A stretch of 64,000 nucleotides of DNA from Candidatus Thorarchaeota archaeon. Its GTDB lineage: Archaea > Asgardarchaeota > Thorarchaeia > Thorarchaeales > Thorarchaeaceae. Positions 41,789 to 61,608 of the stretch are shown here, piece by piece. Below the pieces are notes generated by a model. The model saw only the letters and a program-made list of their open reading frames with translations. It made no database searches and was not told the origin of the DNA. Position 1 is the stretch's first letter, and every line of letters begins with the position of its first letter. The stretch spans positions 1-64,000 of the forward strand of contig JAIZWL010000010.1 in NCBI GenBank assembly GCA_021498125.1. The letters run 5' to 3'. The position numbers and the translations under genes are program-made.

Positions 41789-43560
41789 CTATCGTCGGCG
41801 TTTGGATACTAACACTACGAGGATCACTACGACAACTGCAATGCCACCCACCATGATCAGCATTTCCGAGTTGATCTCAGGGCCACCGCCCGTATATGGT
41901 GGATTGGTCGTGGTGGTTGCCACCATGCCCTTACCAACAACATAGGTCAGAACCATGGACTCATAGCTACCTGAGGGTGTAGATACTAACACCTTGAAGT
42001 AGACCTGAGTGTCCTCGTCAAATGGCGGAATAGTGCCAGCCCAAGTGTTGCCGTTCTCGTTCCACATAGACCCCGAGTTCCAGTTCGCGTCATCGGTACT
42101 ATAGAGGAGAGAGACCTCGTTGATCTGCTCGCTCGTATAGATGTCACCACGAACCGTCACTGAGTCACTGGATGTAGGAACGGCAGGCTCGATGCTGAAG
42201 GCACCGAAGGTCACTGGTCCAAGACCACCCTGGACACCAGAGGCGGACACGTAGCTGACAAAGACCGGGTCCTGATTGACGCTAAAGCCTTCCCACTCGG
42301 GGAAGCCAATAGTCACCATGTACATGCTTGAACTAAAGCTCCAAGCAGTTGCGGACTTGCCCGAGTCTGACTCGAAGGCCGTTCGGAAAGTACCCAATGG
42401 GGTCGTGTAGCTGAGAACATCGTACGGAGCAGTGAGGTTCTTGCCCCAGTCATAGGTGACGCCACCCATGATCATCTCAGCAAAACGGGCACCTGAGGTC
42501 TCAAGGTCAAACCTGTCCGAACTCACAGTGCTCTCGCTGTCGGCAAAGGTGCCGTTCGCCTTGAAGGCAAAGTCGGACATGCGGACCTCGGAGAAGTAGT
42601 TGAGTGCAAGACTGCGGTTCTCGAGATTATCTCTGCCACCAAGCAGATCCACATCCCAATTTCCGACGTAGTTATCCACCTTGATCCGTGCCTGATTATT
42701 GATGTCGCTGGAAGAAACAGTACCTTGGAAGTGTACTAGAAATGACAGCTCGTCGATAGTAATCTTGGTCGGTCGCTCGTCAAAGGTCCTCATGTCGGTA
42801 CCAGTGACTAGACTGTCATACCAGCCCCAGTAACCATAGGAGGTGAATGGGAAGACAGTTCCGTTGACATTATGGAATGTGACGCCCCATGTCACCTCAT
42901 TGGTGAGATTGAGGTTCAACCAGCCAGAGGCATTGAGATTACCATAGGCCTCGCCAGGAGTGACAAAGCTCACCGACTCCACGGAGTCAGGAATGAGGAA
43001 GTGTGTCAGCTCACTATTTGATGGATTGTTGACATCAACGGACATGACACTATCATTGTTCGTGTCCTTCCAGAGCATGAGGCCACTGTATTCATAGTGA
43101 AGACCAATGTCTAGCCAGTGATCGACATCGCCAACCATGGTCGAAGTCCCATAATTCTGGTCAATACCAAAGCTGAGCCATGTCCAAGTCTGACCACCCT
43201 GATCGATCCAGTCCCAACCATTCGCTTGAGCCTGTGCAAGAATATCCGCCCAGGTCATATTCTGAGCCATCCATGCAACACCCCAATATCCAGCTCGTGG
43301 AGTATCATCGCTGAACATCAGTGTGTCCTTGATGATGTCCATGTCAGTGGAATTCACTCTCGTGAAGTCGGCTGCATGATACCAGTAGAAGGACTGACTC
43401 CATGTGTAGTTCCAAGTGAAGGTATCTACACCCAGCCACGAGTTGACATGCATCTCGTCACCATAAGCAGTACCGTTGGGATCCCAAGTGAGCCAGACAT
43501 CCATGTGGTCCCATGAATGGGTCCAACTATCTGTCGATTCGTACTCCTCAAGGATGTAGT
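41789..43560 (-). repeat. Near-identical paralogous segment shared with 48033-49760
   Basis: The C-terminal coding part of protein A repeats at 48033-49760 in protein B. Stretches such as 42205-42270 are identical base for base to 48463-48528. Elsewhere roughly nine bases in ten match by eye, including third positions. This is a large direct repeat from gene duplication or later gene conversion. Confidence 0.8.
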
Positions 43561-46500
43561 ACTGATCACTAGTGGTCTCGAAGTCCCCATCAAGATCCAG
43601 TGCGCCATTGGTCGGATCAATTGCCCAGTTCTTAAAGTCCCACATTCCCCATGCGGGTATACCTATGACAACAGAATCAAAGTTCTTGTAGACAGCACTA
43701 TCGATTGGTTCAGGACCGTACACATATGCATGACCCCAAACGTATCTCAAGCGTCGAATAGGTTCTATGTGAGAGGTGGCGTTTACCAGACTACCCTTGT
43801 AATAAAATTGGTAGATGGGGTGGTCATTACTAAGATAGACTTCGGCAGATGATGTGCCATTCACGATTCGAAGTTGGGTATTGATATACGCATTGTCATG
43901 AACAACATACGTCTGATTATTGAAGTCAATCACCGTGTGCGATGCATTCTCATATGCTATTGCATGTGAGATGACCAATACTGGAAGAGATCGATAATTG
44001 GTTCCAAGTTCGATCTCGCTGCCATTTAGTGCAATATAGAAGTACACAGTATAATTGTCCTGTTGGCGACTATAGGGATAGTTGAACCAAGAGTAGAACT
44101 GCGTACCATCGAGATCCATCAGATAGACATTCACCAGATTGGTCTCATTCACAAGCCAATAGGTGCCATTGAGAAGGTGATAGAGATAGCAATTGTTAGG
44201 TGCACTCCAATTTAGAGGCTGACCATACTCGTTGCTATAGTACTCAACGGTCTCAAGTGGACTGAACATCTGATTTCCACTAAAAGTACCAACTTCAGCA
44301 GTACTACTACTGACAGTCGGATTCCATGCAATTGTGCCATTAGCGATAATGACTCTCTGGAATGACTCGACCACTTCATAGGTTGTCCCATTGATAATAG
44401 TATACAAGAGTGAGTCATTGTATTTGTGGACAGGATAGAACGTACCGTTATAGACCAGTGATCTGGTCGAGGGTACCTTTCCGCCCTCCGAGATCAGATG
44501 GTCGAGATCGTACTCGTCAGCAGACGCAGCACCAGGATAGGGCATCTCGTGTATGAGACCATTCCCATCTTCATAGTACCAGAAACGGTCTATATTCCAA
44601 GACACCAATATCACTGCGTCACCATCATACTGTCCAATGTAATACACTTCAGACCAGCTGACAAACTGCCAAGAGCCTTCGATGTACATCATGTACCGAT
44701 CTGTCACTGAGTCATGCTGCAACTGGTAGAGAATACCGTCAACATCCATGATGAAGTAGGTTGACGCAGCACTATCCCACCAATACTCACTGATATTGAG
44801 TAGACCATTGTTACCATAGCGGACATACTTGTAATTGGTCATATTATCCGGAGTCACAAAGTCGTAAGGTGTGATGTTGACCGAGGGACCCGAATATTCC
44901 CAATCGCCTTGGTGAAGGCCTCCGTAAATATCAATCCAGTAGTAATAGCCGCCACTATCGTTGCCATCCCACCAACGGTCCCAGTCCTGAGCCGTTAGGA
45001 AGGTGTCACCGTTACTGACGGTCACATTGTAGATCCAGATACCCTCAGTATAGGTCACCGGGAGCCTAGTGCCATTGACCAGCTCATAGTAGTAGTAATT
45101 CTGAGAGGTGATAGGATCATAGTGGTCATAGAAAAACAGACGCTTGACATCTTTTTGCATTCCGGGATCAAAGATGGTCGTCACCTGAATTGGTATCTTT
45201 TCATTATTAATGAGAACAAATGGTGCCTCACGACCCATCATAAATGCAGAACCTAGTGTACCGTTAACGAAGTTGTACGCCAATTGATTTTCAAAATTCT
45301 GATCGACATAGATCAATGATTCTTGATAATCAAAGCTGTAGACTGGCTCCATGCCCCATGAATACACAGGATGCAGGCCCCAGATACTATCATAGTCTTC
45401 ATGCCATGTGTTATTCATGAAGGAGAAGTCCCACCAGTATGTGGTGTCGGGAACTGCGTCGCTCATATTTACAAAGAAGGAGACATACAAGTTGCCGTCC
45501 TCAGTCCACTTGGTGAAGTTCTCAGTTGTACAGAATGGCGATGTGACTTCGGTATTAGGACCACGTTCGGGGATCCATTCCGTTTGCCATTCACCAGTCT
45601 GCTGGTTGAAGAACCAAGTGGTCCACACCCAGCCTTCGATCTCGCCCCATTCCCATATTTGGTAGGCACCAAAGACATACTCGGTCGCGCCGGATGTCGC
45701 ATTGTATACTTTATGCCAGCCTGTCTTGTTGACAAGAACATAGTCCCAATGAGTACCATATGTGAGGTTGGTCAAGGTGGTGTAGTTATACGCCGTCAGC
45801 GTCGGGCTGCCGTCCATAGCATAATTGATCTCGTATGAGAGAGAAGACCATGTTGTCTCGTTTTCGGACCAAGTACCGTCGTATGCCTTGAGCCGTAAGA
45901 ACGCAGCATCAATATCATCAGCGATCGAGCTGCCGCCCTGTAGTTCGGCCTTCACTTGGAAGTATTGGCCCTTGTCAACTTGGAAGGTCCAACCTGAGGG
46001 ATTCTTTCCATCAGCTGTGAGAAGCCACGCGATCGTCACAGGGCTCTCAATTGCGACCTGTCGGGCCATATTGAATTCGGCCTCGGTCTGTAGAGGATTA
46101 CCTCCCCATGTTGCCGGACCCCAGTGATTGCCCTTGACATCAAAGACGTCAGCCCAAAAATTCACCGAGTTATAGCGATTGGTCGGGGGCATCTTGTCTG
46201 TGAAGTGCCCAACAAGATCAACCACCAACTGGTTATTGATCTCACGTGCTATGCACCGAGAGAAATTAAGTTCGAAGAACTTTGGAATATCAGTGGGATA
46301 GGGTTCTGTCACGATAAGGTCGCGTTCATCCACGCCATCAACATAGTGGTCAAGGGGATAGCCCCAGACAGTGTACCCATATTGCTCAGTCCAGTTACCG
46401 GAGCTCACATTATAGCTATAGTAAGCCATTGAGGGGACCCATTGAGTCTCATTATAGAGCACGGGTTCATTTTGACCACTTGTCGCATTCCATTCCCATG

Positions 46501-47647
46501 TCAGGCGGGTGACATTCACACCCTTTGCAGTATTGAACTCGGTTCGTTGTAACTCCTCATGGACGCCATAGATCCACTCATACGTTGTGACCACAGCAGA
46601 GGCATTCCAGACATAGGTATGCATTACGTGATCATATTCCCAACCACCAGTAGTGATGATGGGAGCCAGATAATCAGAAGTCACATTCACAAGGGTGTCA
46701 ATACCCTCTGGTAACGGTAGGGTGAGACGAACAATACCCGGATCCGTACCTGTAACATTAAAGCGCATGATAAAATCGCCGTTTCTGCTCACTGAATAGA
46801 TAGTATCACCTGAGAGACCCAGCTTCTGTAACGTAAACGAACCACCAAAGGAGATAGCCATCGCCGCAGATGGTGGTAGTACAAGTGAGATCCCTCTAAA
46901 TTGCCAACCAGTATTGTACCCATCTTGGCGATAGTTGTTGTAATCTGTGTCCATTATGTACATGTCCAATGTATACATTCCCACAGGGGCGTCTTCGGTA
47001 AAGCGTACAACAAAACTAACATAATCGTTCATCGTATCATTGTGGTATGAACTGCTATTTGAATCGATAATCACAAATGAGGGGGCTGGAGGCTCGGGAG
47101 GTGCCGTAGAACCGGATTCGGTTGCATTATACTCTGAGGAGTAAACGTCCCAGTTAGCGATCCCGTCCCATAGATGAAAATTAATATTAAAGTTGGCCGA
47201 AAAGTTAGTGTCAGAGGTCATGTAATATCCATTAAACGTTACTGTATCGATAGTAGCGTTTCCACTGAAGATGTCCTTAGGCACTGTGACAGTAAAAGTC
47301 AACCATTCGTCAACCTCGGCGTAATCGTCAGGCCCAAAAATAGATCCGTTCTCATGATAGATCTTATAATCGGGGCGTGGGCCAAATAGCCATTGCTTGT
47401 TATCCCAGGTCCATGTATCACTTGTGCTGTTACTATCCTTGTTCCAACCTACGAATGTCCCATTCTCACCTGGCTGTATAGGACCCATTGGAGGTCCTTC
47501 CTTTTGAGACCATGTAAAGATGAGATCATTCGTAGAAATATCCGATGCGGGTAGAGTGGCGGCTGAACCAGCATAGAACATTGAAATAAGGAAAATACTA
47601 ACAGCAACTACAGAAAGAAATTTTCTTGTGCTTTCCGTTGGTTGCAT
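41789..47647 (-). CDS. Giant glycosylated surface/S-layer-like protein A
   Basis: About 1952 residues counted from the ATG after AGGAG; the frame extends upstream but without a signal-like start. A signal helix (FLSVVAVSIFLISMFYAGSA) leads into a very long beta-rich, Tyr/Trp/Asn-rich ectodomain with many N-x-S/T sequons. Segments resembling ADSEST, VTYDWGKN and a C-terminal Ig-like domain (VTVRGDIYTSEQINEV) precede a Thr-rich linker, a membrane helix (IAVVVVILVVLVS) and KRRR. The gene is highly similar to the neighbouring 1956-residue gene, almost identical over the last ~500 codons. Architecture suits a cell-envelope or S-layer role; direct proof is lacking. Confidence 0.75.
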   Translation of the reverse strand: MQPTESTRKFLSVVAVSIFLISMFYAGSAATLPASDISTNDLIFTWSQKEGPPMGPIQPGENGTFVGWNKDSNSTSDTWTWDNKQWLFGPRPDYKIYHENGSIFGPDDYAEVDEWLTFTVTVPKDIFSGNATIDTVTFNGYYMTSDTNFSANFNINFHLWDGIANWDVYSSEYNATESGSTAPPEPPAPSFVIIDSNSSSYHNDTMNDYVSFVVRFTEDAPVGMYTLDMYIMDTDYNNYRQDGYNTGWQFRGISLVLPPSAAMAISFGGSFTLQKLGLSGDTIYSVSRNGDFIMRFNVTGTDPGIVRLTLPLPEGIDTLVNVTSDYLAPIITTGGWEYDHVMHTYVWNASAVVTTYEWIYGVHEELQRTEFNTAKGVNVTRLTWEWNATSGQNEPVLYNETQWVPSMAYYSYNVSSGNWTEQYGYTVWGYPLDHYVDGVDERDLIVTEPYPTDIPKFFELNFSRCIAREINNQLVVDLVGHFTDKMPPTNRYNSVNFWADVFDVKGNHWGPATWGGNPLQTEAEFNMARQVAIESPVTIAWLLTADGKNPSGWTFQVDKGQYFQVKAELQGGSSIADDIDAAFLRLKAYDGTWSENETTWSSLSYEINYAMDGSPTLTAYNYTTLTNLTYGTHWDYVLVNKTGWHKVYNATSGATEYVFGAYQIWEWGEIEGWVWTTWFFNQQTGEWQTEWIPERGPNTEVTSPFCTTENFTKWTEDGNLYVSFFVNMSDAVPDTTYWWDFSFMNNTWHEDYDSIWGLHPVYSWGMEPVYSFDYQESLIYVDQNFENQLAYNFVNGTLGSAFMMGREAPFVLINNEKIPIQVTTIFDPGMQKDVKRLFFYDHYDPITSQNYYYYELVNGTRLPVTYTEGIWIYNVTVSNGDTFLTAQDWDRWWDGNDSGGYYYWIDIYGGLHQGDWEYSGPSVNITPYDFVTPDNMTNYKYVRYGNNGLLNISEYWWDSAASTYFIMDVDGILYQLQHDSVTDRYMMYIEGSWQFVSWSEVYYIGQYDGDAVILVSWNIDRFWYYEDGNGLIHEMPYPGAASADEYDLDHLISEGGKVPSTRSLVYNGTFYPVHKYNDSLLYTIINGTTYEVVESFQRVIIANGTIAWNPTVSSSTAEVGTFSGNQMFSPLETVEYYSNEYGQPLNWSAPNNCYLYHLLNGTYWLVNETNLVNVYLMDLDGTQFYSWFNYPYSRQQDNYTVYFYIALNGSEIELGTNYRSLPVLVISHAIAYENASHTVIDFNNQTYVVHDNAYINTQLRIVNGTSSAEVYLSNDHPIYQFYYKGSLVNATSHIEPIRRLRYVWGHAYVYGPEPIDSAVYKNFDSVVIGIPAWGMWDFKNWAIDPTNGALDLDGDFETTSDQYYILEEYESTDSWTHSWDHMDVWLTWDPNGTAYGDEMHVNSWLGVDTFTWNYTWSQSFYWYHAADFTRVNSTDMDIIKDTLMFSDDTPRAGYWGVAWMAQNMTWADILAQAQANGWDWIDQGGQTWTWLSFGIDQNYGTSTMVGDVDHWLDIGLHYEYSGLMLWKDTNNDSVMSVDVNNPSNSELTHFLIPDSVESVSFVTPGEAYGNLNASGWLNLNLTNEVTWGVTFHNVNGTVFPFTSYGYWGWYDSLVTGTDMRTFDERPTKITIDELSFLVHFQGTVSSSDINNQARIKVDNYVGNWDVDLLGGRDNLENRSLALNYFSEVRMSDFAFKANGTFADSESTVSSDRFDLETSGARFAEMIMGGVTYDWGKNLTAPYDVLSYTTPLGTFRTAFESDSGKSATAWSFSSSMYMVTIGFPEWEGFSVNQDPVFVSYVSASGVQGGLGPVTFGAFSIEPAVPTSSDSVTVRGDIYTSEQINEVSLLYSTDDANWNSGSMWNENGNTWAGTIPPFDEDTQVYFKVLVSTPSGSYESMVLTYVVGKGMVATTTTNPPYTGGGPEINSEMLIMVGGIAVVVVILVVLVSKRRR

Positions 47648-47770
47648 CTTTAATCGACTCTCCTGAGTGACATGCGGTCTAACTGCACGCAGGAGATGTA
47701 CAGATGCGGGGGGTTGTTGGCGTGCAATCAAAAAGATGATCACTCTAGAACTAATATATTATAAGATGAA
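47648..47770 (-). promoter_or_regulatory. TATA promoter and conserved 5' UTR stem-loop of surface gene A
   Basis: On the minus strand a TATA-like CTTATAATATATTAG lies at about 47748-47765. The 5' UTR then contains complementary arms at 47721-47727 (TTGCACG) and 47683-47689 (CGTGCAG). The arm nearest the gene begins exactly 36 bases before the start codon, the same as in gene B. An SD-like CAGGAG follows. The arms would put a stem-loop near the mRNA 5' end. Confidence 0.65.
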
Positions 47771-47983
47771 TTGCGAATATAAGATAATGGCTGATATACT
47801 GCTTTTTAGACCGTAAAAAAGCGCAAAAATACATCGATAATGCCAGTCAAATGATATTACGAGCCGTCATCGGCCAGAGAGTCCTGTTACGACACACAGA
47901 ACGATCGGAAAAAAGGAAACGTATTGGCAAATGACGAAGGAGAGTCCATTAGAAAATAATCGTACTCAACAAGATATATTGGC

Positions 47984-48026
47984 GAAAAAAGAAAAAAATA
48001 AGGAGGAAGAGGGGATAACCCTCTTC
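47984..48026 (-). terminator. Hairpin terminator of surface gene B
   Basis: GAAGAGGG...CCCCTCTTC (complement of 48006-48026) followed by CCTCCTTATTTTTTTC on the minus strand just after the stop codon. Confidence 0.75.
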
Positions 48027-48032
48027 ATTATT

Positions 48033-51000
48033 TTACCGTCGGCGTTTGGACATGATCACAGCCAGCACGATCACAACAACGGCAATGCCACCTACCATGA
48101 ACAATACTTCCGTACTAATTCCTGGGCCACTGCCAGTATAAGGTGAAGTAGTGGTGATGGTGGTGATGGTGGTGATCATGCCCTTGCCCACAACATAAGA
48201 CTGGACATCCGACTCATAAGTCCCTGAGGGTGTAGACACGGCCACCTTGAAGTAGACCTGAGTGCCCTCGCCAAACGGTGGAATAGTACCAGCCCAAGTG
48301 TTGCCGTTCTCGTTCCACATAGAATCTGAGTTCCAGTTCGTTCCGTCGGTGCTATAGAGGAGAGAAACCTCGTTGATCTGCTCACTCGTATAGATGTCAC
48401 CACGAACCGTCACAGAATCACCGGAAGTGGGAACGTCAGGCTCGATACTGAATGCACCGAAGGTCACTGGTCCAAGACCACCCTGGACACCAGAGGCGGA
48501 CACGTAGCTGACAAAGACCGGGTCCTGATTGACACTGTAGCCATCCCACTCGGGGAAGCCAATGCTTACCATGTACATGCTTGAGCTGAAGCTCCATGCA
48601 GCTGCCGACTGCCCAGAGTCAGACTCGAAGGCCGTTCGGAAGGTGCCCAGCGGGGTCGTGTAGCTGAGGACATCGTATGGTGCAGTCTTGTTCTTGCCCC
48701 AGTCATAGGTGACACCACCCATGATCATCTCGGCAAATTGTGCACCTGAGGTCTCAAGCTGGAAACGATCAGCACTTACAGTGCTCTCGCTGTCGGCAAA
48801 GGTACCGTTCGCCTTGAAGGCAAAGTCGGACATGCGGACCTCAGAGAAGTAGTTGAGTGCAAGACTGCGGTTCGCGAGATTGGCCCTGCCACCAAGCATG
48901 TCCACATCCCAGTTTCCGACATAGTTGTCAACCTTAATGATGGCCTCATTATTCAGACCGGTATCGGAAACATTTCCGTGGAAGTGGACAAGGAAGGACA
49001 GCTCGTCGATAGTGACCTTGGTCGGTCGCTCGTCAAAGCTTCTCATGTCGGTACCTGTGACTAGACTATCATACCAGCCCCAGTAGCCGTAGGAGGTGAA
49101 CGGGAAGACGGTTCCGTTGACATCATGGAACGCAACGCCCCAAGTCACCTCATCTGTCAGATTGAGAGCCAAGAACCCTGAGGCATTGTAGTCGCCGTAA
49201 CCTTCACCGGGAGTGACGAAACTGATAGAGCCTATCGAGTCAGGAATGAGGAAGTGCGTCAACTCACTTGACGAGGGATCGTTCACATTGACCGACATGA
49301 CACCATCAGTGTTATTGTCCTCCCAGATCATCAGACCACTGTACTCGTAGTGGAGTCCGACATCTAGCCAATGAGTCACGTCACCGACCTGAGTACTGGT
49401 ACCATAGTTCTGGTCAATGCCGAAGCTGAGCCACGTCCAAGTCTGCCCGTCCTCATCGTACCAGTCCCAGCCGTTGGCCTTAGCCTCTGCAATGACGTCT
49501 TCCCAAGTCACATTCTTGGCCATCCACGCGATGTCCCAATATCCAGCACGTGGCTCACCCCCACTGGTAAAGAGGGTCTCATTAATCGAGGCCATTTCAG
49601 TAGAATTGACTTGTGTGAGATTATCAGCATGGTACCAGAAGAAGCTCTGGTTCCACGAGTACGACCAGCTGAAGGTATCAATACCCATCCATGAGTTGAT
49701 GCGCATCTCATCACCGTATTGAGTACCATTGGGATCCCAAGTGAGCCAGACATCCATGTGGTCCCATGTATGGTTCCACTGATCAGTCGAGTCATAGGCC
49801 TCTAACACGTAGTACTGATCATCGGTAGTATCGAAATTCCCATCGAGGTCAAGTGCTCCATTGGACGGGTCAGTTGCCCAGTTCCTGAGGCCCCACATCC
49901 CCCACTTCGGAGAACCAATGACAAACGAGTGGAAATTCTGGTACACAGTGCTATCAATCTCGTGAGGGCCATAGACATATTGGTATCCCCAGACATACAC
50001 AAAACTCCGGATGGGAGTCATATTCGCAAAGGCTGTCACATTGACACCTTTGTACGTGAAGTTGTAAATGGGATAGTGCTCCCAAGGTTGGATATACATC
50101 GGGGTGGACGAAGTTGCATTCAGAAGCTTACGTGCCCAAGTATAGAAGGCATTATCATGCAACTTGTAGGTCTGGCCCTTGAAATCCATAAACAAGCCGG
50201 ACCCAGCATTATATGCCTCGACCATAGTCACATTGATGACAGGTAAGATGTCGTAGTCACGAAGCTGAATCTTTGTTCCGTTGATTGCCCAGTAGTAGTA
50301 CTCTGTATAATTGTCGTGGTACCAGCTGTAAGGATAGTTGAACCACGAATAGAATTCCGATCCATTCAGAGAGACCGCATAGATAGTCACCAAATAGGTA
50401 TCATTGACCACCCAGGTTGTACCATTGAAGAGTGGATACAGATAGCAGGAATTGTTGTCATCCCAGAGGGGCTCTCCGGCTGTATCGGTATAATACCTAA
50501 TTGTCTCAACTGGCTCAAACACCTGCTCACCAGTGAAAGTGCCAATCTGAGTGGTCGAACCGACCAACAGAGGATTCCAAGATATCGTGCCGTTGGCAAC
50601 TATGACCTGAGCGTACACCTCGGTGACGCCATAGGTCACGCCATCAATGGTCGTGGTCATGTTCATGTCTTCGCCCATTACCGGATAGGCGGTACCATTG
50701 TAGATTAGCGATTTTGTGCTAGGAACGCGTCCGTCAGGCTGTATATGATCGAGATCATAGGAGGAACATGCTCCAGCCTTGGGGTAGGGCATCTCATGAC
50801 GAACACCATTGCCATCTTCATAGAACCAGAATTGGTCCGGGCAGCAGGTCAACAGTACTGCGGGCTTGTTATTGTAGTCTCCAACAAAATACTGCTCTGG
50901 ATAACTGACATATTGCCAAGCACCGTCAATAAAGATCATGTATCTGCCACTACTTGACTCGTATTGCAGCCTGTAGAGTGTTCCATTCGTATCCGTGAGA

Positions 51001-53903
51001 TAGTAGGTCTCTTCACCGCTATCCCACCAGTATTCAGTGATATTGAGGAATCCACTGCCACCATAGCGGACGAACTGAGAAATTGGCATGCCAGTGAATT
51101 CTATATAGTCATAGAATTCAATCTGTGCATTACAGCCTTCGTATTGCCAATCACCCTGATGAACACCACCATTGATGTCAATCCAATAATAGCTCTCTGT
51201 GCCATTTCCATTCCACCAGCGACTCCATCTTTGAGCTGTCAAGAAAGACTCGCCGTTGTAGAGTGTCACATTATAGATGAAGATTGCATCAATAGAGGTC
51301 ACAGGAATCTTGGTCCCATTCAGAAGTTTGTAATAATAGATGTCCTTCCCAGTGAACGGGTCAGTACGATCAAAGAAGAGTATCCGCTTGTGTGTCGAGC
51401 CCATTGCTGGATCGTAGGTGTCTATCGTAGTGATTGGGAGTTGTCGGCCATCAATGACAATGTACGGGGAATCCTGTCCCAGCATCAGCTGGGTGTCACC
51501 AGTCTTATTGGTGAACTGGTAGGCTAGCTGGTTGTTATCGCCCATGCTACCGGGATACTTATCCACATAGACAGGGGTGCCCAGATAATCGAAGGAATAC
51601 ACAGGCTTGAACTCCCATGAATAGACCTCATGGAGACCCCAACTACTTGTGGTGTCCTCATACCATGAATTGTTGGTAAAGGCAAAAGACCAATCATAGC
51701 TCTGGTCTGGAACGGACTCGCTCATGTTGATCAGAAATGAGACATAGAGGTTACCGTTCTCGGTCCATGCGCTAAAGTTCGAAGTAGTGCAAAAGACTGA
51801 TGAGGTGATCCGCGTTTCGGGGCCCTGCGTTGGGATCCATTCGTGTTGCCATTGATGGGTCTGTTGGTTATAGTACCAAGTGGTCCAGTACCAACCCTCG
51901 GCCTCACCCCATTCCCAGACCGTATAGTTACCGAATTTGTATTCCCATGTACCAGTTGTGGAATTGTAGTCCTTATACCATCCAGTCTTGTTGACGGGTA
52001 TGTAATCCCAATACTTGCCATAGGTCTGATTGTATTTTGTGGTATAATTGAATGCTGAGAATGTGGGGGTTCCATTCATTGTATAGTAGATCCTATAGGA
52101 GATATCAGTCCAGATTGATTCGTTTTCGGACCACGTTCCAGTATAGGCATTAAAAGCGACCTTGACACCATCAATGTCACTTGCGATGTCACTACCGCCC
52201 TGAAGTTCGCCTTTTATCATGAAGTCCTTGTTCTTGTCAACCTGGAAGAGCCAGCCCATCGGGGTTCGACCGTCAGCGGTCAACAACCGTGCGACGGTGA
52301 CAGGACTCTCGATCGCAACTTGCTGAGCGAGCCTGAAATCGGAATCGCTTTGAAGCGGTTGATCACCACAAGTGGCAGGACCATAAGGATTGCCATCAGA
52401 ACCAAGGACACTAGTTTCGAATCGCACAATGTTATCGTTTGAAGTAGGTGGCATATCTTCAGTGAAATGCCCGACAAAATCAACAACCAACTGGTGATTG
52501 ATCTCAGTGGCTGTGCACAACGAGTAGTTCAACTCGTAGAAAACTGGCAAGTTAGGCGGGTAGGTGTCAGGAATAATAAATTCCGTTTCTCCTGGCTGAT
52601 CAGGATTGTAATAGTCATAGGGATAGCCCCAGACGGAATAGCCATAGGTATCAGACCACGTATCCGAGGTCACGTTATATGTGAAGACGAGAAGTGCTGG
52701 AGCCCACTGAGTCTCCTCATAGAGAACTGGGTCATCTCTCTGAGTGGTCTCATTCCATTCCCATGACAAGCGGGTGACATTAATTTCGCGCCAGGTGTTG
52801 AAAGGCACCCACTGGTCAACCTCATGAACACCATACTCTTCCTTGTAGGTAGTGACCTCAACCGAGGCATTCCATACAAAGGTATGGAGCGTTGGATCGT
52901 ATTCCCAACCACCAGTAGTGGTCACTGGCACACGATACCACGAAGTCTCATTAACTTTCGTGTTCATTCCATCAGGGAGTGGTAATGAGAGACGGACTAT
53001 GCCAGTATTTTCGCCGGTGACATTAAATCTCATGATGAAATCGCCATTTCTACTGACAGAATAGATAGTATCACCTGTCAGAGAAAGCTTTTGCAGGGTA
53101 TACGTACCACCAAAGGAGAATGTCCATGCCTCAGAAAGTGGAATACCGACGGAGATCCCTCGGAACTGCCAACCCGTCCCATAGTCGCCCAGCCCGAACG
53201 AATTCCCCTCATTGTCATAGACAAGCAGATCGAGGCTGTAGAGGCCTTCTGGCGCACTCTCGTTAAAACGGACTACAAAATTGACATGCTGACTGTTGAC
53301 ATCGTGGGAGGTAGAACTGCTAGCACTGTCAAGTTCGACAAAGGTAGGCGAGGGTGCATCGGGATTAGAACAACTACCATTCCAAATGGACGAATACACA
53401 TTCCAGCTGAAGCTACTGCCCCAGATCTCGTATCTCAAATGAAAATCGGCTGATAAATTAACATTCTGGGACATATACCAACCTTGGATCTCTACAGAGG
53501 AAAGGGTAGCATTTTTACTGAAGAGATTGTTAGGGATCGTGACCGCAAAGACAAGCCACTGCCCATACACGGCGTAGTCATCTTTGCCGAACATTGTTCC
53601 ATTTTTATAATAAATCTCGTATTTCGCTTTAGGCCCAAAGAGCCAGTTACGGTTCTCCCAGGACCATTGATCACTCGTGCTGTTGCTATCCCTGTTCCAG
53701 TCGACAAACGTTCCATTCGCCCCCATTGGTGCAGGTGGCTCAGGTGGAGGAGTCTTTTCCTGAGACCATGTGAACAGGGGTGTATCTACACTATGTGCAG
53801 AGGTTGGAGCTGTTGCAATTGAATTAGCATACAACATTGAAATCAGGAAGATAGTAACAGCAACTACAGACAGGATTTTTCTTACGCGCTCTGTGTGTTG
53901 CAT
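48033..53903 (-). CDS. Giant glycosylated surface/S-layer-like protein B
   Basis: 1956 residues. The signal helix (ILSVVAVTIFLISMLYA), ectodomain, the Ig-like domain, Thr-rich linker (TTITTITTTS), membrane helix and KRRR tail match protein A throughout, and the last ~500 codons are almost the same. The middle third, which would face the environment, has diverged more. No enzyme motifs were seen. Its own promoter and terminator make it an independent unit. Two such near-identical genes suggest phase or antigenic variation or dosage, but that is only inferred. Confidence 0.75.
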   Translation of the reverse strand: MQHTERVRKILSVVAVTIFLISMLYANSIATAPTSAHSVDTPLFTWSQEKTPPPEPPAPMGANGTFVDWNRDSNSTSDQWSWENRNWLFGPKAKYEIYYKNGTMFGKDDYAVYGQWLVFAVTIPNNLFSKNATLSSVEIQGWYMSQNVNLSADFHLRYEIWGSSFSWNVYSSIWNGSCSNPDAPSPTFVELDSASSSTSHDVNSQHVNFVVRFNESAPEGLYSLDLLVYDNEGNSFGLGDYGTGWQFRGISVGIPLSEAWTFSFGGTYTLQKLSLTGDTIYSVSRNGDFIMRFNVTGENTGIVRLSLPLPDGMNTKVNETSWYRVPVTTTGGWEYDPTLHTFVWNASVEVTTYKEEYGVHEVDQWVPFNTWREINVTRLSWEWNETTQRDDPVLYEETQWAPALLVFTYNVTSDTWSDTYGYSVWGYPYDYYNPDQPGETEFIIPDTYPPNLPVFYELNYSLCTATEINHQLVVDFVGHFTEDMPPTSNDNIVRFETSVLGSDGNPYGPATCGDQPLQSDSDFRLAQQVAIESPVTVARLLTADGRTPMGWLFQVDKNKDFMIKGELQGGSDIASDIDGVKVAFNAYTGTWSENESIWTDISYRIYYTMNGTPTFSAFNYTTKYNQTYGKYWDYIPVNKTGWYKDYNSTTGTWEYKFGNYTVWEWGEAEGWYWTTWYYNQQTHQWQHEWIPTQGPETRITSSVFCTTSNFSAWTENGNLYVSFLINMSESVPDQSYDWSFAFTNNSWYEDTTSSWGLHEVYSWEFKPVYSFDYLGTPVYVDKYPGSMGDNNQLAYQFTNKTGDTQLMLGQDSPYIVIDGRQLPITTIDTYDPAMGSTHKRILFFDRTDPFTGKDIYYYKLLNGTKIPVTSIDAIFIYNVTLYNGESFLTAQRWSRWWNGNGTESYYWIDINGGVHQGDWQYEGCNAQIEFYDYIEFTGMPISQFVRYGGSGFLNITEYWWDSGEETYYLTDTNGTLYRLQYESSSGRYMIFIDGAWQYVSYPEQYFVGDYNNKPAVLLTCCPDQFWFYEDGNGVRHEMPYPKAGACSSYDLDHIQPDGRVPSTKSLIYNGTAYPVMGEDMNMTTTIDGVTYGVTEVYAQVIVANGTISWNPLLVGSTTQIGTFTGEQVFEPVETIRYYTDTAGEPLWDDNNSCYLYPLFNGTTWVVNDTYLVTIYAVSLNGSEFYSWFNYPYSWYHDNYTEYYYWAINGTKIQLRDYDILPVINVTMVEAYNAGSGLFMDFKGQTYKLHDNAFYTWARKLLNATSSTPMYIQPWEHYPIYNFTYKGVNVTAFANMTPIRSFVYVWGYQYVYGPHEIDSTVYQNFHSFVIGSPKWGMWGLRNWATDPSNGALDLDGNFDTTDDQYYVLEAYDSTDQWNHTWDHMDVWLTWDPNGTQYGDEMRINSWMGIDTFSWSYSWNQSFFWYHADNLTQVNSTEMASINETLFTSGGEPRAGYWDIAWMAKNVTWEDVIAEAKANGWDWYDEDGQTWTWLSFGIDQNYGTSTQVGDVTHWLDVGLHYEYSGLMIWEDNNTDGVMSVNVNDPSSSELTHFLIPDSIGSISFVTPGEGYGDYNASGFLALNLTDEVTWGVAFHDVNGTVFPFTSYGYWGWYDSLVTGTDMRSFDERPTKVTIDELSFLVHFHGNVSDTGLNNEAIIKVDNYVGNWDVDMLGGRANLANRSLALNYFSEVRMSDFAFKANGTFADSESTVSADRFQLETSGAQFAEMIMGGVTYDWGKNKTAPYDVLSYTTPLGTFRTAFESDSGQSAAAWSFSSSMYMVSIGFPEWDGYSVNQDPVFVSYVSASGVQGGLGPVTFGAFSIEPDVPTSGDSVTVRGDIYTSEQINEVSLLYSTDGTNWNSDSMWNENGNTWAGTIPPFGEGTQVYFKVAVSTPSGTYESDVQSYVVGKGMITTITTITTTSPYTGSGPGISTEVLFMVGGIAVVVIVLAVIMSKRRR

Positions 53904-54030
53904 TTTCGATCAGCACTCCTGAGTGTTATCAAGTCCAACTGCACGTAGGAGATAACTGTCGTCTATCGCAGCGGGTCTTGGGCGTGCAGCTTGGAAAATA
54001 TGCACTCTGGAACTGATTATATATAATGTG
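53904..54030 (-). promoter_or_regulatory. TATA promoter and conserved 5' UTR stem-loop of surface gene B
   Basis: TATA-like TTATATATAATC (minus strand, about 54016-54027) precedes arms CTGCACG (complement of 53983-53989) and CGTGCAG (complement of 53939-53945). The distal arm begins 36 bases from the ATG, as in gene A. CACTCAGGAGTG near the ATG is itself palindromic and contains the SD. Confidence 0.65.
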
Positions 54031-54151: not shown

Positions 54152-57100
54152 TTACTTGACCTTGCGCAACCGCAGAATAATGACGATCACCACGACCACT
54201 GCCACACCGCCACCTATGGCTATCAGGATCATGGGGTTCAGTTCACCTGGTAGGCCAGTCGTCGATGTAGTGGTTGGTAACGTTGTTGTTGTGGTCTCTG
54301 TAGCATCCTGAACTGTGTAGCTCAGTTGTGGAGAGTCGGTATACTTGCCACTCAGATCATAGGCTCGAACGTAGTACGTGACCACAGAGCCATCAGATTG
54401 TGCAGGGATAATTCCTTGATACTGACTGGTCGACACATTGGTCATAGATACCATGTTCCAAGACCCATCACCAACTTTGTAGTAGAGCGTGACATTCTGA
54501 ATACCAGTGTCATCCGAGACCACAGCAGTGACGGTCACAGAGTCATTAGAGGTCGGATGCGCCTTGTCCACACTGACAGAGATCGTTGGTGGAGAGAGAT
54601 CATCAGACACGACGTAGTAGAAGATATCGGACTGAGTACTCTGCCCAAGATTGTCAACTGCAATCACATAGTAGGACACATTGGAACCATTCGGCTGAGC
54701 CGGAATGAGGGCCCAATACGTGTTCGCATTAGCGGTCATGGAAAGATTGTTCCACGGGCCACCATTGACACTGTAGCGTAGAGTCACATTCTCAATAGTT
54801 CCATCGTCAAGTACGGTCACAGACACGTTCACACTATCTGAAGAGGTCGGACTTGTTGGAGTGATGCTCAGAGCACCCATCCCGGGTGGAGTATCACCCT
54901 CGGTCGAGAATCGATAGACCTGCTCATCAGATGTTGCAGTATTGCCATCGTTGTCGGTTGCCGCGACCGTATAGAACACGTATGTGCCAGGTGCCTGATT
55001 GGGTACCGTGTACGTGTATAGCTCTGTCGCGGACTGGTAGGTCATGTCAACAGTTGTTGGATGGCCACCGATGGTATATGTCAACTGAACAGAGGCAAGA
55101 CCCGAACCACCTTCATCAGTGATCGAGGCATCGACTATGAGGACCTCATCACCACTGACCTCACCCTTACTCCCAGTCACCGAGAAGATGACAGGTGGCT
55201 GAGCATCGATGAACCGATAGCTCTGTGTGGAAGAGGACATTAGATTGCGGGCATTGTCGTATGCACGAACAATGTAGTACATGGTGTAGGCAAAGTTGCT
55301 TGCACGTGTCACATAGGCCTCATACAGGCCAAGTGTGGCATTGTATTCCATCCGTACAGTCTGCTCGGTATTGATGATGTAGATCTCCACATATGCGATG
55401 CCAGACGTACCAACATCTGAGACGTCGGCAGTGATGTGCGCATATACTTTACCAGAGTCTGATGCAAGGCCGAGTGAGGCAATGCTGGGGGCATCAGGGT
55501 CATTCCAGAACTTGTGTTGGAACGAACTGGTGCTGTTCATGTTCCCGGCATAGTCGTAGACCTCAATCCTACCATTGAAGGTGTAGGGAGTCGTACCGAC
55601 CATCTCAACATAGCCAGTCCATTTCTTAGTCCCACTGTCAAAGGTGAGTGTCGTGTTCGCATTCAGATCATCAATGTTGACCAGTCGCACTTCACGAATA
55701 CCCGAGCCGCCAGTATCAGTCGCATCCACTGTAACGTAGAGGCGCTCCTTGTTGTCCACAAAGCGCGTGACATTTGTCATCGATTGGATCTGTGGTGCAA
55801 TCATATCAGTCACACCATTCGCGGACGAATATGACACAAAGACAGGATCCACTGTGACCGCATAGCCATCCCACCACTTGAAATCAATCAGTGTATAGAA
55901 TTGGCTGGTCGAGATATCGAACGGGGTCACAGTTGTTCCGCCCTGAGAAGCATAGGCTGCCTCAAAGGCGTCAACTGGAACTGTCTGGGAGTCAACAATA
56001 GTATAGTTCGCACTCTTGTTCCTCGCCCACGAATAGTATGCGCCGCCCAAGTTCATCGAGGCTATCGAGTCAGTTCCAACTCCTAATGAGAAATTAGAAG
56101 ACCCTACTGTCTGATTATTTGACACGGGTTGACCACTCTGATCAAAATAGGATGCATCAAGTATTGTGCCAGACTCGGACACCATCAGGACATCGGTATA
56201 AAACGCCATTCCTAGACTAAGCCCATCTAGTACGGACTTGCCACCGGGTGCATCAATGTCCCAGTCACCAACTGTCAGATTGAACTTCACCGTTCCGTTG
56301 TTCATGCCACCACCAGTATTGATGTGGCCACTGAACGCAGCACCTATACCAAACTCGGTGACATTCACCTGAGTTGGACGCTCTTCAAAGGTCATGAAGT
56401 CGCCAGTCTGAGATCCCGTGTACCAGTCCCAGTAGCTGTTCCCACCGAATGGAAAGGCCTTACCGGACACATTTTCAAAAGTCACACCAAATGGAACGGT
56501 TGCATTGACATCCCAGTAGACATCTCCTGAGAAACTACCGTTTGGAGTCGTGAAGACAACATCACCAAAATCAGTCGGCAACCAGTAGTGGGTCGCCTCG
56601 CTATCTGTAAGGTCGGCAGAATTGAAGTCCATGATGTCATTGGAATTGGTATCATTCCACGCAAACATTCCTGCATATTCGTACCAGACATCAACAGACA
56701 TGAATGTACCATTTGACATCTCACTTCCGTAGTGCTCGGATAACTGCCACCAGACCCAGCTCCATTCTTGCGTATCCTCAATGGCCCAGTCCCAACCCTC
56801 ATCGATGGCCTGCTGTTTGAGGTCATCAGAGGTGAAGTTCTTGGCCATCCACGAGATGCCCCAGTATCCGGGACGCGGAGCCCCCGAGGGGTCGAAGATG
56901 GTGCTATTGACATAGGTGTTGAACTCGGAGGGACTGAGAAGATCACCACTAGTTGCGTTGTACCAGTAGTAATTGTCAGCCCAGAAATACGACCAATTGA
57001 CCGTCACCAAGCCTGTGTACGAGTCAACATAGAACTCGTCACCAACGGTCGTATTATCAGGCTCCCACTCGATTGAGACTTGCAGATACTGCTCGGTCAC

Positions 57101-60100
57101 ATTGTAACAGTCCGTGCTCTCATGAGCGCTCTTGACATAGAACTGGTCGTCAGTCGTCGTGAAGTTGCCATCAAGATCGAGGGCACCAGTCGCAGGGTCT
57201 ATACCCCAAGATTGGACATCCCAAAGACCAAATTCCGGATTACCCACAACAAGCGAATACTGATCGCGCATGATTGTGATTGGCAGTGCAGCGTAGTCGT
57301 ATTTGAGTGGATATCCCCAGACATTGTGAGCCTTGTAGATCATCTCATGAGATGATGTGACATTCCAATAGGTCACCCCACCATCGAGGGTGAAGTTATA
57401 CCGTGGCATGTTGAAGTAGTTCCCCTTATCGAGATCGGGATCGTAGATCTCCAACTTCACGGTACCGTTGGTCAACACCACATAGTCATAATCAACTACC
57501 ATATTATTGTAGTTCCAAGACTCCCAATACTGATTGTCAAAGTTCCAAATTGATACGGAATAATCTGTGTGATTATACCAAGTGCCTTCAAAGAGAAACT
57601 GTTCGGAGGTGCTGTTATAGACATCTGCAATGATTATCGTCACAGAGCTGACATCAGTGTCCACCCAAGTGACTTTAGAACCGTTCAAATCCCATGTGTA
57701 CCAGTAGATAAGGTCATAGGAACCACGAGATTCATTGAACAATGTATAGTCATACGGATAGGGCATTGCAGTATAGAAGAACGTGCCATTTGATAGTGTC
57801 ACGTTATAGAAATAGCCACGATCAGGACGGGTGTAGTTCATGACAAACCCATCAACTGTGACTACGTAAGGGGTGCCGTTTACATCATAGTTTTGAATCT
57901 CACCTGAGGTTTCCTCATCAGGAGGCGAACCTGTCGTGACCTCGATCTGGCCATCAGGGATGAACTCCCAGGTCACATTGTCTCTGTGACCATAGGAGAC
58001 AGTCCAACCATTGAACTGCAGGTTGCGAATAAACAGCGAGCCATTGGCCATTGCTGTTAATGGATTATCTGAATCACCATAAGGCTGCCATGCATCAGGT
58101 CCTACACTGTACTTGGTCAGGTTGTAAATGGTACCATTCACAATTGCGTGATAGAAATCGTAGCTGTATCCATCAGTAGGATGCACATAGCTGCCCGCGT
58201 AGGTCACATTGGTCCATTGCCCTTCAAGCCGTACCAAGATGTCACTTGTCGTACCGTGCTCGAGTTCGTAGAAGTTATGGGTAATCGTACCGGGTTCTGG
58301 TAGCCACATCTTCGGTCCCAAGATATCCGTATACATGAAGTACTCCACTGTGTCGGAGAGAGCCAACACCTTTGTACCTTTATACCAACCCTCGAAGACA
58401 TCTTGAGGCCAGAGAGTATTGAAGAACCAATAGGTTGAACTTCCGTTTACGTAATAGTATGCCTCACGATTATACTCAGGACAATAGCCCCACCAGACGT
58501 CAAAGCGCTGCCAAGTGGCATTCTCATAGATGACGTAGTGATCACCCACCCATTCTGGGTACGTGGCCATGAACAATGTCTTTGAGTCGTTGACAACAGA
58601 TGCCAGACCGACCTTCATGAGATCGACGTAATCAAGTAGAACGTTGGTGGAGGACATCCAAATTGAAGGCGAGTCTACAACTGGAGAGCCGTTGATTGCA
58701 AACATGTACTCATATGCTGGATTGATGTGTGGATGAGTTACATTTTCTACAGCAAGGAACGAATCAAAGGGTGTCGTAATATTGTAGATGGGGACTTGCC
58801 GTCCCTGATGTGCATAGACTCGTGTACCGTTGGTCAATCTGTAGTAGTACTCCCAGTTGCCATTGTATTGATTACTATCCTCATTGAACGCAGTAGCATT
58901 CCATTCCTTGAAGAGAATGAACTGACGCTCATTACCGTCAATATCAGTTTCCGTGAAACGATCTACATAGAGTTTCTCTCCACCAATCACGATGTATGGC
59001 ATTGTCTTAGTGTCAAGAAGCGAATCAGTATCGTTGTCACGCATGACAACAGATCGACGGGGAGTAGTAATGTAGACACGAGAACCATTCTCATAGCTGT
59101 GAACAAGACTATCGGTCCAGTCAAGGACAACGTGTTCACCCCAGCCTGCCTCATAGTCCTCCATCCATGTGAGATTTCCATAGTAGTAATCCCACTGCCA
59201 CTCCATCTCTGGCATTAGAACCGTTGGAGTCACGTCAAAGGTGATACTGAGATCGTTACCGAGCACATTGTAAGTCATGTTACCAATATTCACATAGGAC
59301 AGAGGCATGACCGTCTTATTGCTCTGATACATTAGTGGCTCAGTCGTCCAGTCATTGGCCTCAAAGTCCCAGAAGAACTCCTGCCAGTGCCATCCAGCGA
59401 CGAGAACATATTGCCATTCCCAGTGACCGGGGAACGTCTCAAGATATTGCCATTGATAGCTATCACCATACACGTATTCTACCCGATGTGTCATATTATA
59501 GACAGTGACATCTTTGTAGCCATCGGGAGATATCTTCATCCAAATCTCTACTTGTGAGTCTTGAGACCATGAGTCAGGTCCTTCATCACCCCATTGATAC
59601 TCCTGTCCACGAAGTACCAACGCTACTCCATCAATATCGTTCGCATAGGCTGCACCGCCTTGCAGGCGTGACTTGACAGTAAAGGTCTCTGCTCGCTGAG
59701 TGACGAACATCCATGATGGATCATACGGTTTGTTTTGATGCAGCAGACGGACGACCGCTATTGGTGAATCTATTGCCAATTCTCTAAATCGGTCATAGGC
59801 CGCCGCTTCTTCGGTGCTTGCAAAAGGCATCCATGCATACGGGATAAGGGTACGACCAAAGAGATCCATAACTAGAGTCTGGACTTGGAGCGGAGCAACA
59901 TCACCGCCAGTTGGAAGTGCATCTTCAGAGATATGACCTCTAAAAGTGATGATATCATGAACGCCGTCCGTAGAGTAACCACTCGCACTGGCATTAAGCA
60001 CATACGTTTCAGGGATACTCCCGTCAGAGGGGAACGGCTCAAACACTTGTGTAGGTTCAAGATGTCCACCCATGGAATCGTCAACAAAATGCATCTCTTC

Positions 60101-61420
60101 GTGATGGAGAAGATAACTAAAGGAGTTATTTGCAAACCAGTAGACCACAGCGATATGGAGCTCTGCAAACTCGGTCACAGGGTCACCACTCTGTGGATCA
60201 ATATGTTGGTATTCAACCGTTGGGTCAAGCCATTCATCGACGGTTTCCCAATGAAGACCCCAAACTTGTTCTGTTGCCCTTACGTTAATTGAGGCATTCC
60301 AAAAGTAAGTATCTAGTGTAGAATCGTATTGCCATCCGCCAGTCCTGTTTACTACGCGGATATAATCACTCTCAATTAGTCTCTGCACATGAATCTTGTT
60401 TGGTAATCCAAACAGAAGTGTTGCATTATCAAGATAAGAGCCGCTGATAATGTAAGTGGTGTTGAAATCTTCGCCGCGGGTTGCTGAATATAGAATATTT
60501 CCATCATCATCAACACGTGACACTGAATAGTACCCACCAACCACGGCCTGCAGTGCTTGCTCAAATGTGATTCCAATTGCACGGACTGAAGTATCATCGT
60601 CATGACTCTCTGCAATCGGTACTAAACTGCTATCCACCGCCAAGGCATGGATACGATAAAGACCAAGTTCGGTACTGGAATTAAATCTCAGCTGGAACTG
60701 TGTCCAGATGTTTTGCTGACCAGGAAAGTAGCCACAACCTGCAGTATTGATCTCCAAGAACGGATCAAGCTCCGGACCAAACATGTCTTGCAAAGTCCAA
60801 CCGGGTGGCAATGAGGGGGACACACTTGTTTCCATACTAGGACCAGAAGAAGGACCTGATTCTGAGCCGCTGGCAAAGGTTGCATTCTTGCTAGAATAGA
60901 TCTGCCAGAGTCCAGTTGACACCTCAAAGACCCCCAAGAAAGAAGTTGTATAGGGAGCAGGTTCATAGGGGGCTCCTGACATCTTTGCCGCAACTTCTGT
61001 AAAGTTGACATAGGTACCCGTTATGATCACCGCGTAGGGGATCTTTCCACCTATAGCATTCTTTGGGATCTTGAGCAAAAAGTTCGTCCAGCCATCAATG
61101 CCAATTGTGTCATTTAGTGTAATGACTTGGCCGGTAGTAGCGTTGCTCACACTCCATGTAATGGTGGGACCAAACTCCCAATTACTCCATGATGAAGTGT
61201 CATTCCAGCTTTCACTAGTGGTTCCCTGATCCCATTCAACATGTGTATAATTCGGGGGAAGCGAGTCAGCCAATTTGTATGGTATTCGCGGAGGTGCATA
61301 TACCATGTTTGACTGAGAATCTAAAGAATCATGTTGATTAATGGGAGGGGGGCCCATCAACAGTGAAAGTGTAAACAGACTAAGCATGAAGAGAGTAACT
61401 AGTTCGTGCTTTCGAATCAC
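54152..61420 (-). CDS. Giant surface protein C with C-terminal Ig-like array
   Basis: About 2422 residues from GTG with AAGGAG at eight bases; a TTG six bases upstream is too close to the ribosome-binding site. A signal helix (LVTLFMLSLFTLSLLMG) is followed by a long Trp/Tyr-rich ectodomain of the same kind as proteins A and B, but clearly more distant and longer. The last ~500 residues add at least five Ig-like domains (for example VTYYVRAYDLSGKY, NVSYYVIAVDNLGQ), close to those of the 1062-residue surface protein at 35 kb. A Thr-rich linker, membrane helix (VAVVVVIVIILRL) and short basic tail end it. Probably a scaffold or cell-contact protein. Confidence 0.75.
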   Translation of the reverse strand: MIRKHELVTLFMLSLFTLSLLMGPPPINQHDSLDSQSNMVYAPPRIPYKLADSLPPNYTHVEWDQGTTSESWNDTSSWSNWEFGPTITWSVSNATTGQVITLNDTIGIDGWTNFLLKIPKNAIGGKIPYAVIITGTYVNFTEVAAKMSGAPYEPAPYTTSFLGVFEVSTGLWQIYSSKNATFASGSESGPSSGPSMETSVSPSLPPGWTLQDMFGPELDPFLEINTAGCGYFPGQQNIWTQFQLRFNSSTELGLYRIHALAVDSSLVPIAESHDDDTSVRAIGITFEQALQAVVGGYYSVSRVDDDGNILYSATRGEDFNTTYIISGSYLDNATLLFGLPNKIHVQRLIESDYIRVVNRTGGWQYDSTLDTYFWNASINVRATEQVWGLHWETVDEWLDPTVEYQHIDPQSGDPVTEFAELHIAVVYWFANNSFSYLLHHEEMHFVDDSMGGHLEPTQVFEPFPSDGSIPETYVLNASASGYSTDGVHDIITFRGHISEDALPTGGDVAPLQVQTLVMDLFGRTLIPYAWMPFASTEEAAAYDRFRELAIDSPIAVVRLLHQNKPYDPSWMFVTQRAETFTVKSRLQGGAAYANDIDGVALVLRGQEYQWGDEGPDSWSQDSQVEIWMKISPDGYKDVTVYNMTHRVEYVYGDSYQWQYLETFPGHWEWQYVLVAGWHWQEFFWDFEANDWTTEPLMYQSNKTVMPLSYVNIGNMTYNVLGNDLSITFDVTPTVLMPEMEWQWDYYYGNLTWMEDYEAGWGEHVVLDWTDSLVHSYENGSRVYITTPRRSVVMRDNDTDSLLDTKTMPYIVIGGEKLYVDRFTETDIDGNERQFILFKEWNATAFNEDSNQYNGNWEYYYRLTNGTRVYAHQGRQVPIYNITTPFDSFLAVENVTHPHINPAYEYMFAINGSPVVDSPSIWMSSTNVLLDYVDLMKVGLASVVNDSKTLFMATYPEWVGDHYVIYENATWQRFDVWWGYCPEYNREAYYYVNGSSTYWFFNTLWPQDVFEGWYKGTKVLALSDTVEYFMYTDILGPKMWLPEPGTITHNFYELEHGTTSDILVRLEGQWTNVTYAGSYVHPTDGYSYDFYHAIVNGTIYNLTKYSVGPDAWQPYGDSDNPLTAMANGSLFIRNLQFNGWTVSYGHRDNVTWEFIPDGQIEVTTGSPPDEETSGEIQNYDVNGTPYVVTVDGFVMNYTRPDRGYFYNVTLSNGTFFYTAMPYPYDYTLFNESRGSYDLIYWYTWDLNGSKVTWVDTDVSSVTIIIADVYNSTSEQFLFEGTWYNHTDYSVSIWNFDNQYWESWNYNNMVVDYDYVVLTNGTVKLEIYDPDLDKGNYFNMPRYNFTLDGGVTYWNVTSSHEMIYKAHNVWGYPLKYDYAALPITIMRDQYSLVVGNPEFGLWDVQSWGIDPATGALDLDGNFTTTDDQFYVKSAHESTDCYNVTEQYLQVSIEWEPDNTTVGDEFYVDSYTGLVTVNWSYFWADNYYWYNATSGDLLSPSEFNTYVNSTIFDPSGAPRPGYWGISWMAKNFTSDDLKQQAIDEGWDWAIEDTQEWSWVWWQLSEHYGSEMSNGTFMSVDVWYEYAGMFAWNDTNSNDIMDFNSADLTDSEATHYWLPTDFGDVVFTTPNGSFSGDVYWDVNATVPFGVTFENVSGKAFPFGGNSYWDWYTGSQTGDFMTFEERPTQVNVTEFGIGAAFSGHINTGGGMNNGTVKFNLTVGDWDIDAPGGKSVLDGLSLGMAFYTDVLMVSESGTILDASYFDQSGQPVSNNQTVGSSNFSLGVGTDSIASMNLGGAYYSWARNKSANYTIVDSQTVPVDAFEAAYASQGGTTVTPFDISTSQFYTLIDFKWWDGYAVTVDPVFVSYSSANGVTDMIAPQIQSMTNVTRFVDNKERLYVTVDATDTGGSGIREVRLVNIDDLNANTTLTFDSGTKKWTGYVEMVGTTPYTFNGRIEVYDYAGNMNSTSSFQHKFWNDPDAPSIASLGLASDSGKVYAHITADVSDVGTSGIAYVEIYIINTEQTVRMEYNATLGLYEAYVTRASNFAYTMYYIVRAYDNARNLMSSSTQSYRFIDAQPPVIFSVTGSKGEVSGDEVLIVDASITDEGGSGLASVQLTYTIGGHPTTVDMTYQSATELYTYTVPNQAPGTYVFYTVAATDNDGNTATSDEQVYRFSTEGDTPPGMGALSITPTSPTSSDSVNVSVTVLDDGTIENVTLRYSVNGGPWNNLSMTANANTYWALIPAQPNGSNVSYYVIAVDNLGQSTQSDIFYYVVSDDLSPPTISVSVDKAHPTSNDSVTVTAVVSDDTGIQNVTLYYKVGDGSWNMVSMTNVSTSQYQGIIPAQSDGSVVTYYVRAYDLSGKYTDSPQLSYTVQDATETTTTTLPTTTSTTGLPGELNPMILIAIGGGVAVVVVIVIILRLRKVK

Positions 61421-61587
61421 TTTCAATTCTCCTTTGATAACCTATTATTATGACCGAACCTTGACGAGAAACAAACAGGTTACATAGAGTTTCCACCCGT
61501 ATGATCCTGTTGCGCTTGGAACGGAAACCTTAACCAGCGGACCTCTCAGGTGTCGGCGCATCAATATTAATGGTAAAGGCAGTCGAA

Positions 61588-61597
61588 ATAATATAAG
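61588..61597 (-). promoter_or_regulatory. Probable TATA element of surface gene C
   Basis: On the minus strand CTTATATTAT stands ~165 bp upstream of the gene; the intervening leader is long and more G+C-rich, and has no second TATA-like run. Confidence 0.4.
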
Positions 61598-61608
61598 CAT
61601 TGACTGGA

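Follow-up and report, generated by a model that had tools for sequence, protein, structure and literature searches.

A conserved RNA fold in the mRNA leaders of putative Thorarchaeota surface proteins ends before the ribosome-binding site

In bacteria, mRNA decay is counteracted by a 5'-terminal stem-loop (PMC3792030; studies of ompA, papA and aprE cited in PMC3997798). In Sulfolobus, aCPSF2 degrades RNA in the 5'->3' direction and aIF2 protects triphosphate ends (PMC3792030, PMC3936769). Little is known of structured archaeal leaders that determine mRNA stability or translation, and the literature that we searched describes no structured mRNA leader of Asgard archaea. Here, we analyzed a stretch of 64,000 nucleotides (the window; contig JAIZWL010000010.1) from a genome of Thorarchaeota, which belong to the Asgard archaea, focusing on the leaders of two tandem genes for putative surface proteins, A and B, together with the leaders of their homologues. 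An initial annotation had proposed that an inverted repeat in each of the two leaders is an RNA element for stability or translational control, and that structure further downstream can hide the ribosome-binding site (RBS). Strong evidence from sequence comparison shows that compensatory changes have preserved leader pairing, at the level of the sense strand, within one Thorarchaeota family, and that this pairing ends before the Shine-Dalgarno sequence (SD). The leader fold is a real RNA element, undescribed so far.

Homologues were searched in 47 genomes of family f1, mostly metagenome-assembled genomes (MAGs), first with a profile of the two N-termini and next with one built from 23 homologues; each start codon was placed by homology, and the sequence upstream of it was taken as the leader. 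This gave approximately 30 leaders of A/B homologues. In nearly all of them, a 5' segment (often GCGCGCC; GCACGCC in A and B) pairs with a second one close upstream of the SD, and most share one layout, namely a TATA-like TTATAT, then a GC-rich strand after 37-43 nucleotides (nt), and finally a complementary strand shortly before the SD. The 3' strand lies some 16-20 nt further upstream of the SD in A, B and the leaders from genomes G003 and G001 than in the other leaders; MAFFT aligns the 3' strand of A, B and G003 with the 3' strand of the remaining leaders. RNAalifold returned no structure from a MAFFT alignment of all leaders, because the loops and inner helices are too diverged for alignment. 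We therefore applied an alignment-free test, which compares the hybridization energy of a 5' segment (-112..-65) and a 3' segment (-60..-5) from the same leader with that of segments swapped between lineages. Across 22 lineages with one leader each, the mean energy was -27.8 kcal/mol for cognate and -20.2 kcal/mol for swapped segments (z -9.1; 0 of 100,000 permutations). Regions outside the leader core, combined into eight control pairs (upstream/leader, leader/coding sequence and coding sequence/coding sequence), gave no signal, with z from -1.2 to +1.4. Leaving out the clade of A and B itself (z -8.6), genus g5 (z -7.6) or four of the strongest-pairing lineages (z -7.2) preserved the result. 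The leaders also fold better than expected, with a mean minimum free energy (MFE) z-score of about -1.8 over 30 leaders, or -1.73 with gene C, a more distant relative in the window, included.

Covariation was examined in groups of related leaders. Those of genus g5 form a 16-pair helix with 92% of cells paired and two-sided changes in six pairs; none of 500 shuffles reached either the covariation score or the pairing percentage. A covariance model of the g5 leaders (R2) retrieved an extra leader in genome G026 (E 1.7e-21), where the profile search had no A-type homologue, and adding this held-out leader to g5 revealed one new compensatory pair. The G026 leader (L159, G026:C122 near 13554) stands directly before an ATG, followed by the C-terminal end of the same protein in another frame; the gene is therefore internally deleted or misassembled. 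In the A/B group (Group I, four sequences), two-sided changes affect 3 of 10 pairs, and 92.5% of cells are paired, which is suggestive only, because 33 of 500 shuffles do as well. In a 17-sequence MAFFT alignment, one base pair is A-U in A, B and G003 and G-C in most others; this alignment fares poorly in the pair-count control, with 22-26 of 500 shuffles on the two covariation measures, and the misplacement of the G006 and G025a leaders by MAFFT is one cause.

The helices also carry a strand preference. G-U pairs number 80 on the sense versus 48 on the antisense strand, and the cognate pairing signal is z -9.1 on the former versus z -7.0 on the latter. Together, the compensatory changes and the G-U asymmetry point to a constraint acting on the sense RNA. 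Thus, the proposal that this is an RNA element under selection for pairing was borne out, and the pairing proved to be conserved in other genomes. Beyond pairing, the 5' strand carries a motif, CGCGCCG with at most one mismatch, in 13 of the 22 lineages (shuffled maximum 9), and the 3' strands hold no common sequence above shuffles; the 5' strand may therefore have a second, sequence-specific role. Family f1, which supplied all leaders of the pairing test, is the only family in which the element was found; the leaders examined in order-level relatives (G068, G081, G086) are AT-rich. The element seems restricted to the A/B surface-protein gene family. None of the leaders tested matched Rfam 15 at gathering score, the best hit being an unrelated sRNA (E 0.42, 15.2 versus 46.6 bits).

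In the window, where all features given here lie on the minus strand, the A leader has its 5' arm TTGCACGC at 47720..47727 (read 47727..47720) and its 3' arm GCGTGCAG at 47683..47690 (read 47690..47683), and the B leader has CTGCACG at 53983..53989 and CGTGCAG at 53939..53945. The last base of the 3' arm falls at -36 in both genes, exactly as annotated, and again in G003; in G001 it falls at -34. Outward extensions of the stem differ between the two genes yet match within each: UUUGA/UUAGA in A (TTTGA 47732..47728, TTAGA 47682..47678), and UCCAA/UUGGA plus a bulged G in B (TCCAA 53995..53991, TTGGA 53938..53934). The initial annotation had described the loops as diverged, which is true of most of the loop but not of ATCTCCT next to the 3' arm (47691..47697 in A, directly 5' of the arm; 53947..53953 in B), whose seven bases are identical and can pair with AGGAGA, a possible masking of the SD in A and B only. 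The SD itself, AGGAG, lies at -17..-13 in both leaders (47660..47664 in A, 53916..53920 in B). The B stem-loop folds better than all its shuffles (0 of 200 as good, z -3.1) and the A stem-loop better than most (10 of 200 as good, z -1.9); for the last 108 nt of the leader, the folding z is -2.5 in A and -3.1 in B. A proximal TATA-like box stands ~38 nt upstream of each 5' arm (TTATAATATA at 47755..47764 in A, TTATATATAA at 54017..54026 in B), and a second, TTATATT, starts at 47782 and 54044, respectively. From the distance of 37-43 nt between TATA and 5' arm in most lineages, we infer a transcription start ~10 nt upstream of the helix; this nearness of the stem to the mRNA 5' end is predicted from TATA spacing only, and A and B have two TATA-like boxes each. 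A candidate outer GAGTG/CACTC pairing in A and B would need the distal box to be in use and is weak in G003.

Is the RBS masked or left open? The conserved partner in the cognate test is the segment at -40..-17, just upstream of the SD (z -7.1). The SD itself, tried as a cognate partner of the loop, the 5' strand or the whole leader, is not conserved (z -0.7 to -1.5), so that the conserved SD sequestration of an RBS-occluding thermometer, riboswitch or attenuator was not found. When the SD and coding sequence were kept and the leader was shuffled, the start region (-16..+15) was paired at 0.52 in real versus 0.57 in shuffled leaders (p 0.0018; lower in 19 of 25). In an earlier version of this test, the AUG was less paired (p 0.006) and the SD was not (p 0.67). 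The CACTC-AG-GAG(T/A)G hairpin, by which the initial annotation had the SD hidden, was rejected: its 2-nt loop is impossible, and the 4-bp variant is no better than shuffles in four leaders and lost in G003. Hence, general hiding of the RBS by the leader helix is not supported across the family, given an SD that is not a conserved partner, a start region more open than with shuffled leaders and an SD hairpin that fails in G003.

These observations suggest, tentatively, that the leader domain protects the 5' end of the mRNA and keeps the start region accessible, which we favor while giving it somewhat less than even weight. The ~90-110 nt leader would be one self-contained RNA domain, in which a 5' strand beginning ~10 nt beyond the predicted transcription start is paired to a 3' strand that ends shortly ahead of the SD. 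Few free 5' nucleotides would then be left for 5'->3' decay by aCPSF-type beta-CASP nucleases, and with the leader tied up in the fold, the SD and AUG would stay available. Such a combination of shield and insulator would suit the long mRNA of a structural protein. The genome encodes aCPSF1 (941 bits versus a cut-off of 580) and a second beta-CASP protein resembling aCPSF2. Carrying the stabilizing role of bacterial stem-loops over to the Thorarchaeota leader is an analogy. Several points weigh against a shield that keeps the start region open. The openness effect is small; the MFE structure of the A leader from -88 has the SD fully paired, with the loop ATCTCCT; and in g5 a weak UUC strand extends the base of the helix into GGA of the SD. 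Leaders in G012, G022 and G046b fit the pairing poorly, and two paralogue leaders, L019 (G046a) and L086 (G028), are AT-rich without GC-rich arms. The second beta-CASP nuclease scores far under the aCPSF1 model cut-off and reaches no RNase J cut-off, and the literature searched held no archaeal mRNA-stabilizing 5' stem-loop.

Next in standing, and in our view rather unlikely, is a translation switch, in which the leader would hide or free the SD depending on temperature, on a ligand or on a protein, perhaps the gene product or a ribosomal protein, with ATCTCCT as the alternative or pseudoknot partner in A and B. The predicted probability that the SD is paired is 1.00 in A and 0.68 in B, the ATCTCCT block stays identical while the remaining loop differs, and the CGCGCCG motif means that the 5' arm is conserved beyond what pairing needs. 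A loop motif, CGCCACC, would add to this picture with its 10 lineages, though shuffles reach 10 too, and it was dropped as a candidate. A family-wide switch is opposed by the absence of the SD among conserved partners, by the more open start region, by the lack of any Rfam riboswitch or thermometer match, and by SD-loop pairing that is weak in G003 and G001. Since the SD of A is predicted to pair with its loop, a gene-specific translational control in A may nevertheless exist.

We consider it very unlikely that the arms act as DNA, either as a dyad bound by a regulator or with the 5' arm as a downstream promoter element, the RNA pairing being incidental. Such a role could account for a 5' arm, GCGCGCC, that is conserved in sequence and in its spacing from the TATA box, but the 3' arms lack a common sequence and still pair with their own 5' arm, the inner helices differ strongly between genera while being matched within each, and the G-U asymmetry favors RNA. 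A common promoter module was dropped as well, as TATA plus GCGCGCC occurs elsewhere in the genomes at about background level. Hardly credible is the absence of any functional RNA element in the window, with the likeness of A and B, which are tandem paralogues, due to recent duplication or with the hairpin as terminator of the upstream gene, given the same architecture and compensatory changes in 22 diverged lineages, 5' arms that follow TATA-like boxes and lie ~300 nt (A) and ~160 nt (B) beyond the preceding stop codons, and a model, R1, whose matches at E < 1e-15 are confined to the leaders of A, B, G003 and G001 (next match E 0.01).

Genes A (41789..47647, ATG 47647) and B (48033..53903, ATG 53903) encode proteins of 1952 and 1956 amino acids (aa), 57-58% identical over the N-terminal ~390 aa. 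Gene C (54152-61426), which lies head to tail with them, encodes a protein with 30% identity to A/B over 180 residues. All three have an N-terminal signal-peptide-like stretch and a hydrophobic C-terminal segment followed by a basic tail; in A, these are a signal peptide and a C-terminal transmembrane segment with KRRR. The size of A and B, their signal peptide and their C-terminal anchor make it a fair inference that they are surface proteins. Neither A nor B is covered by a Pfam family, the sole Pfam signal in C is a sub-threshold CBM_56 match, and NCBIfam gave no match for B. The structure model of the N-terminal domain had low confidence, and a PDB search with it found no match at E <= 0.001. 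The nearest named relatives of the A and B proteins come from Thorarchaeota MAGs. For A, the ATG at 47647 is common to homologues. The reading frame of A is open upstream through the leader to a GTG at 47743; we preferred the ATG because neither the homologues nor B keep the frame open upstream. In G022, G002, G014, G012, G010 and G020, genes A and C are ~7 kb apart, similar to their arrangement in the window, and this recurrent spacing suggests a conserved envelope-gene pair.

Other leaders in the collection have features of their own. Those of gene C (61430-61600; L045-L054, L087-L090) contain GCGCC-type strands ~40 nt after the TATA box; in the cognate-swap test they were not significant (z -1.3), and their lengths vary. 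In g5, the gene C homologues (L049, L050, L051, L056, L087, L090) have ACG where relatives have ATG, and these six genomes read GAGGTG-TACAMG-ACG-AAG, the SD-like GAGGTG being upstream, so that initiation at ACG is possible. A second element occurs in the leaders of a ~1,200-aa surface-protein family (L091; G000:C5 near 28,900; L093-L100, L125-L144), a hairpin CATCARAGG..CCTTTGATG preceded by GTCGGTTTTTTC, often with AGGAA in its loop and with matched changes in G011, G025, G028 and G012.

A broader idea, which we regard as doubtful, is a family-wide envelope programme, in which the A/B stem, the gene C arms and the AGGAA-loop hairpin of the ~1,200-aa family would mark surface-protein mRNAs, and a protein would bind the GCGCGCC strand or the loops. 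If true, dedicated 5' RNA folds would form a common post-transcriptional programme for the cell envelope. In itself, the short element offers a possible handle on how the archaea most closely related to eukaryotes maintain and translate the mRNAs of large envelope proteins.

Three described systems stand closest. The SLH motif, a riboswitch candidate of Synergistaceae and Firmicutes (PMC6429828), is likewise a structured RNA before surface-layer genes; it is bacterial and precedes other genes, whereas the Thorarchaeota leaders tested match no Rfam family and give no sign of a conserved ligand pocket. With the stabilizing E. coli ompA and papA and B. subtilis aprE leaders (cited in PMC3997798), the element would share a stem-loop a few nucleotides from the predicted 5' end, an accessible RBS downstream of it and mRNAs for exported proteins. 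It differs from them in being archaeal, in a long-range helix that encloses almost the entire leader as far as the SD, in the decay enzymes it would face and in being known from sequence alone. The RBS-masking 5' untranslated regions (UTRs) of Methanolobus psychrophilus (PMC5378194) are also structured archaeal leaders, and a choice of start sites would be possible in A and B too, given their two TATA-like boxes. In Methanolobus psychrophilus, however, the predicted fold buries the RBS, while the conserved Thorarchaeota helix stops before it.

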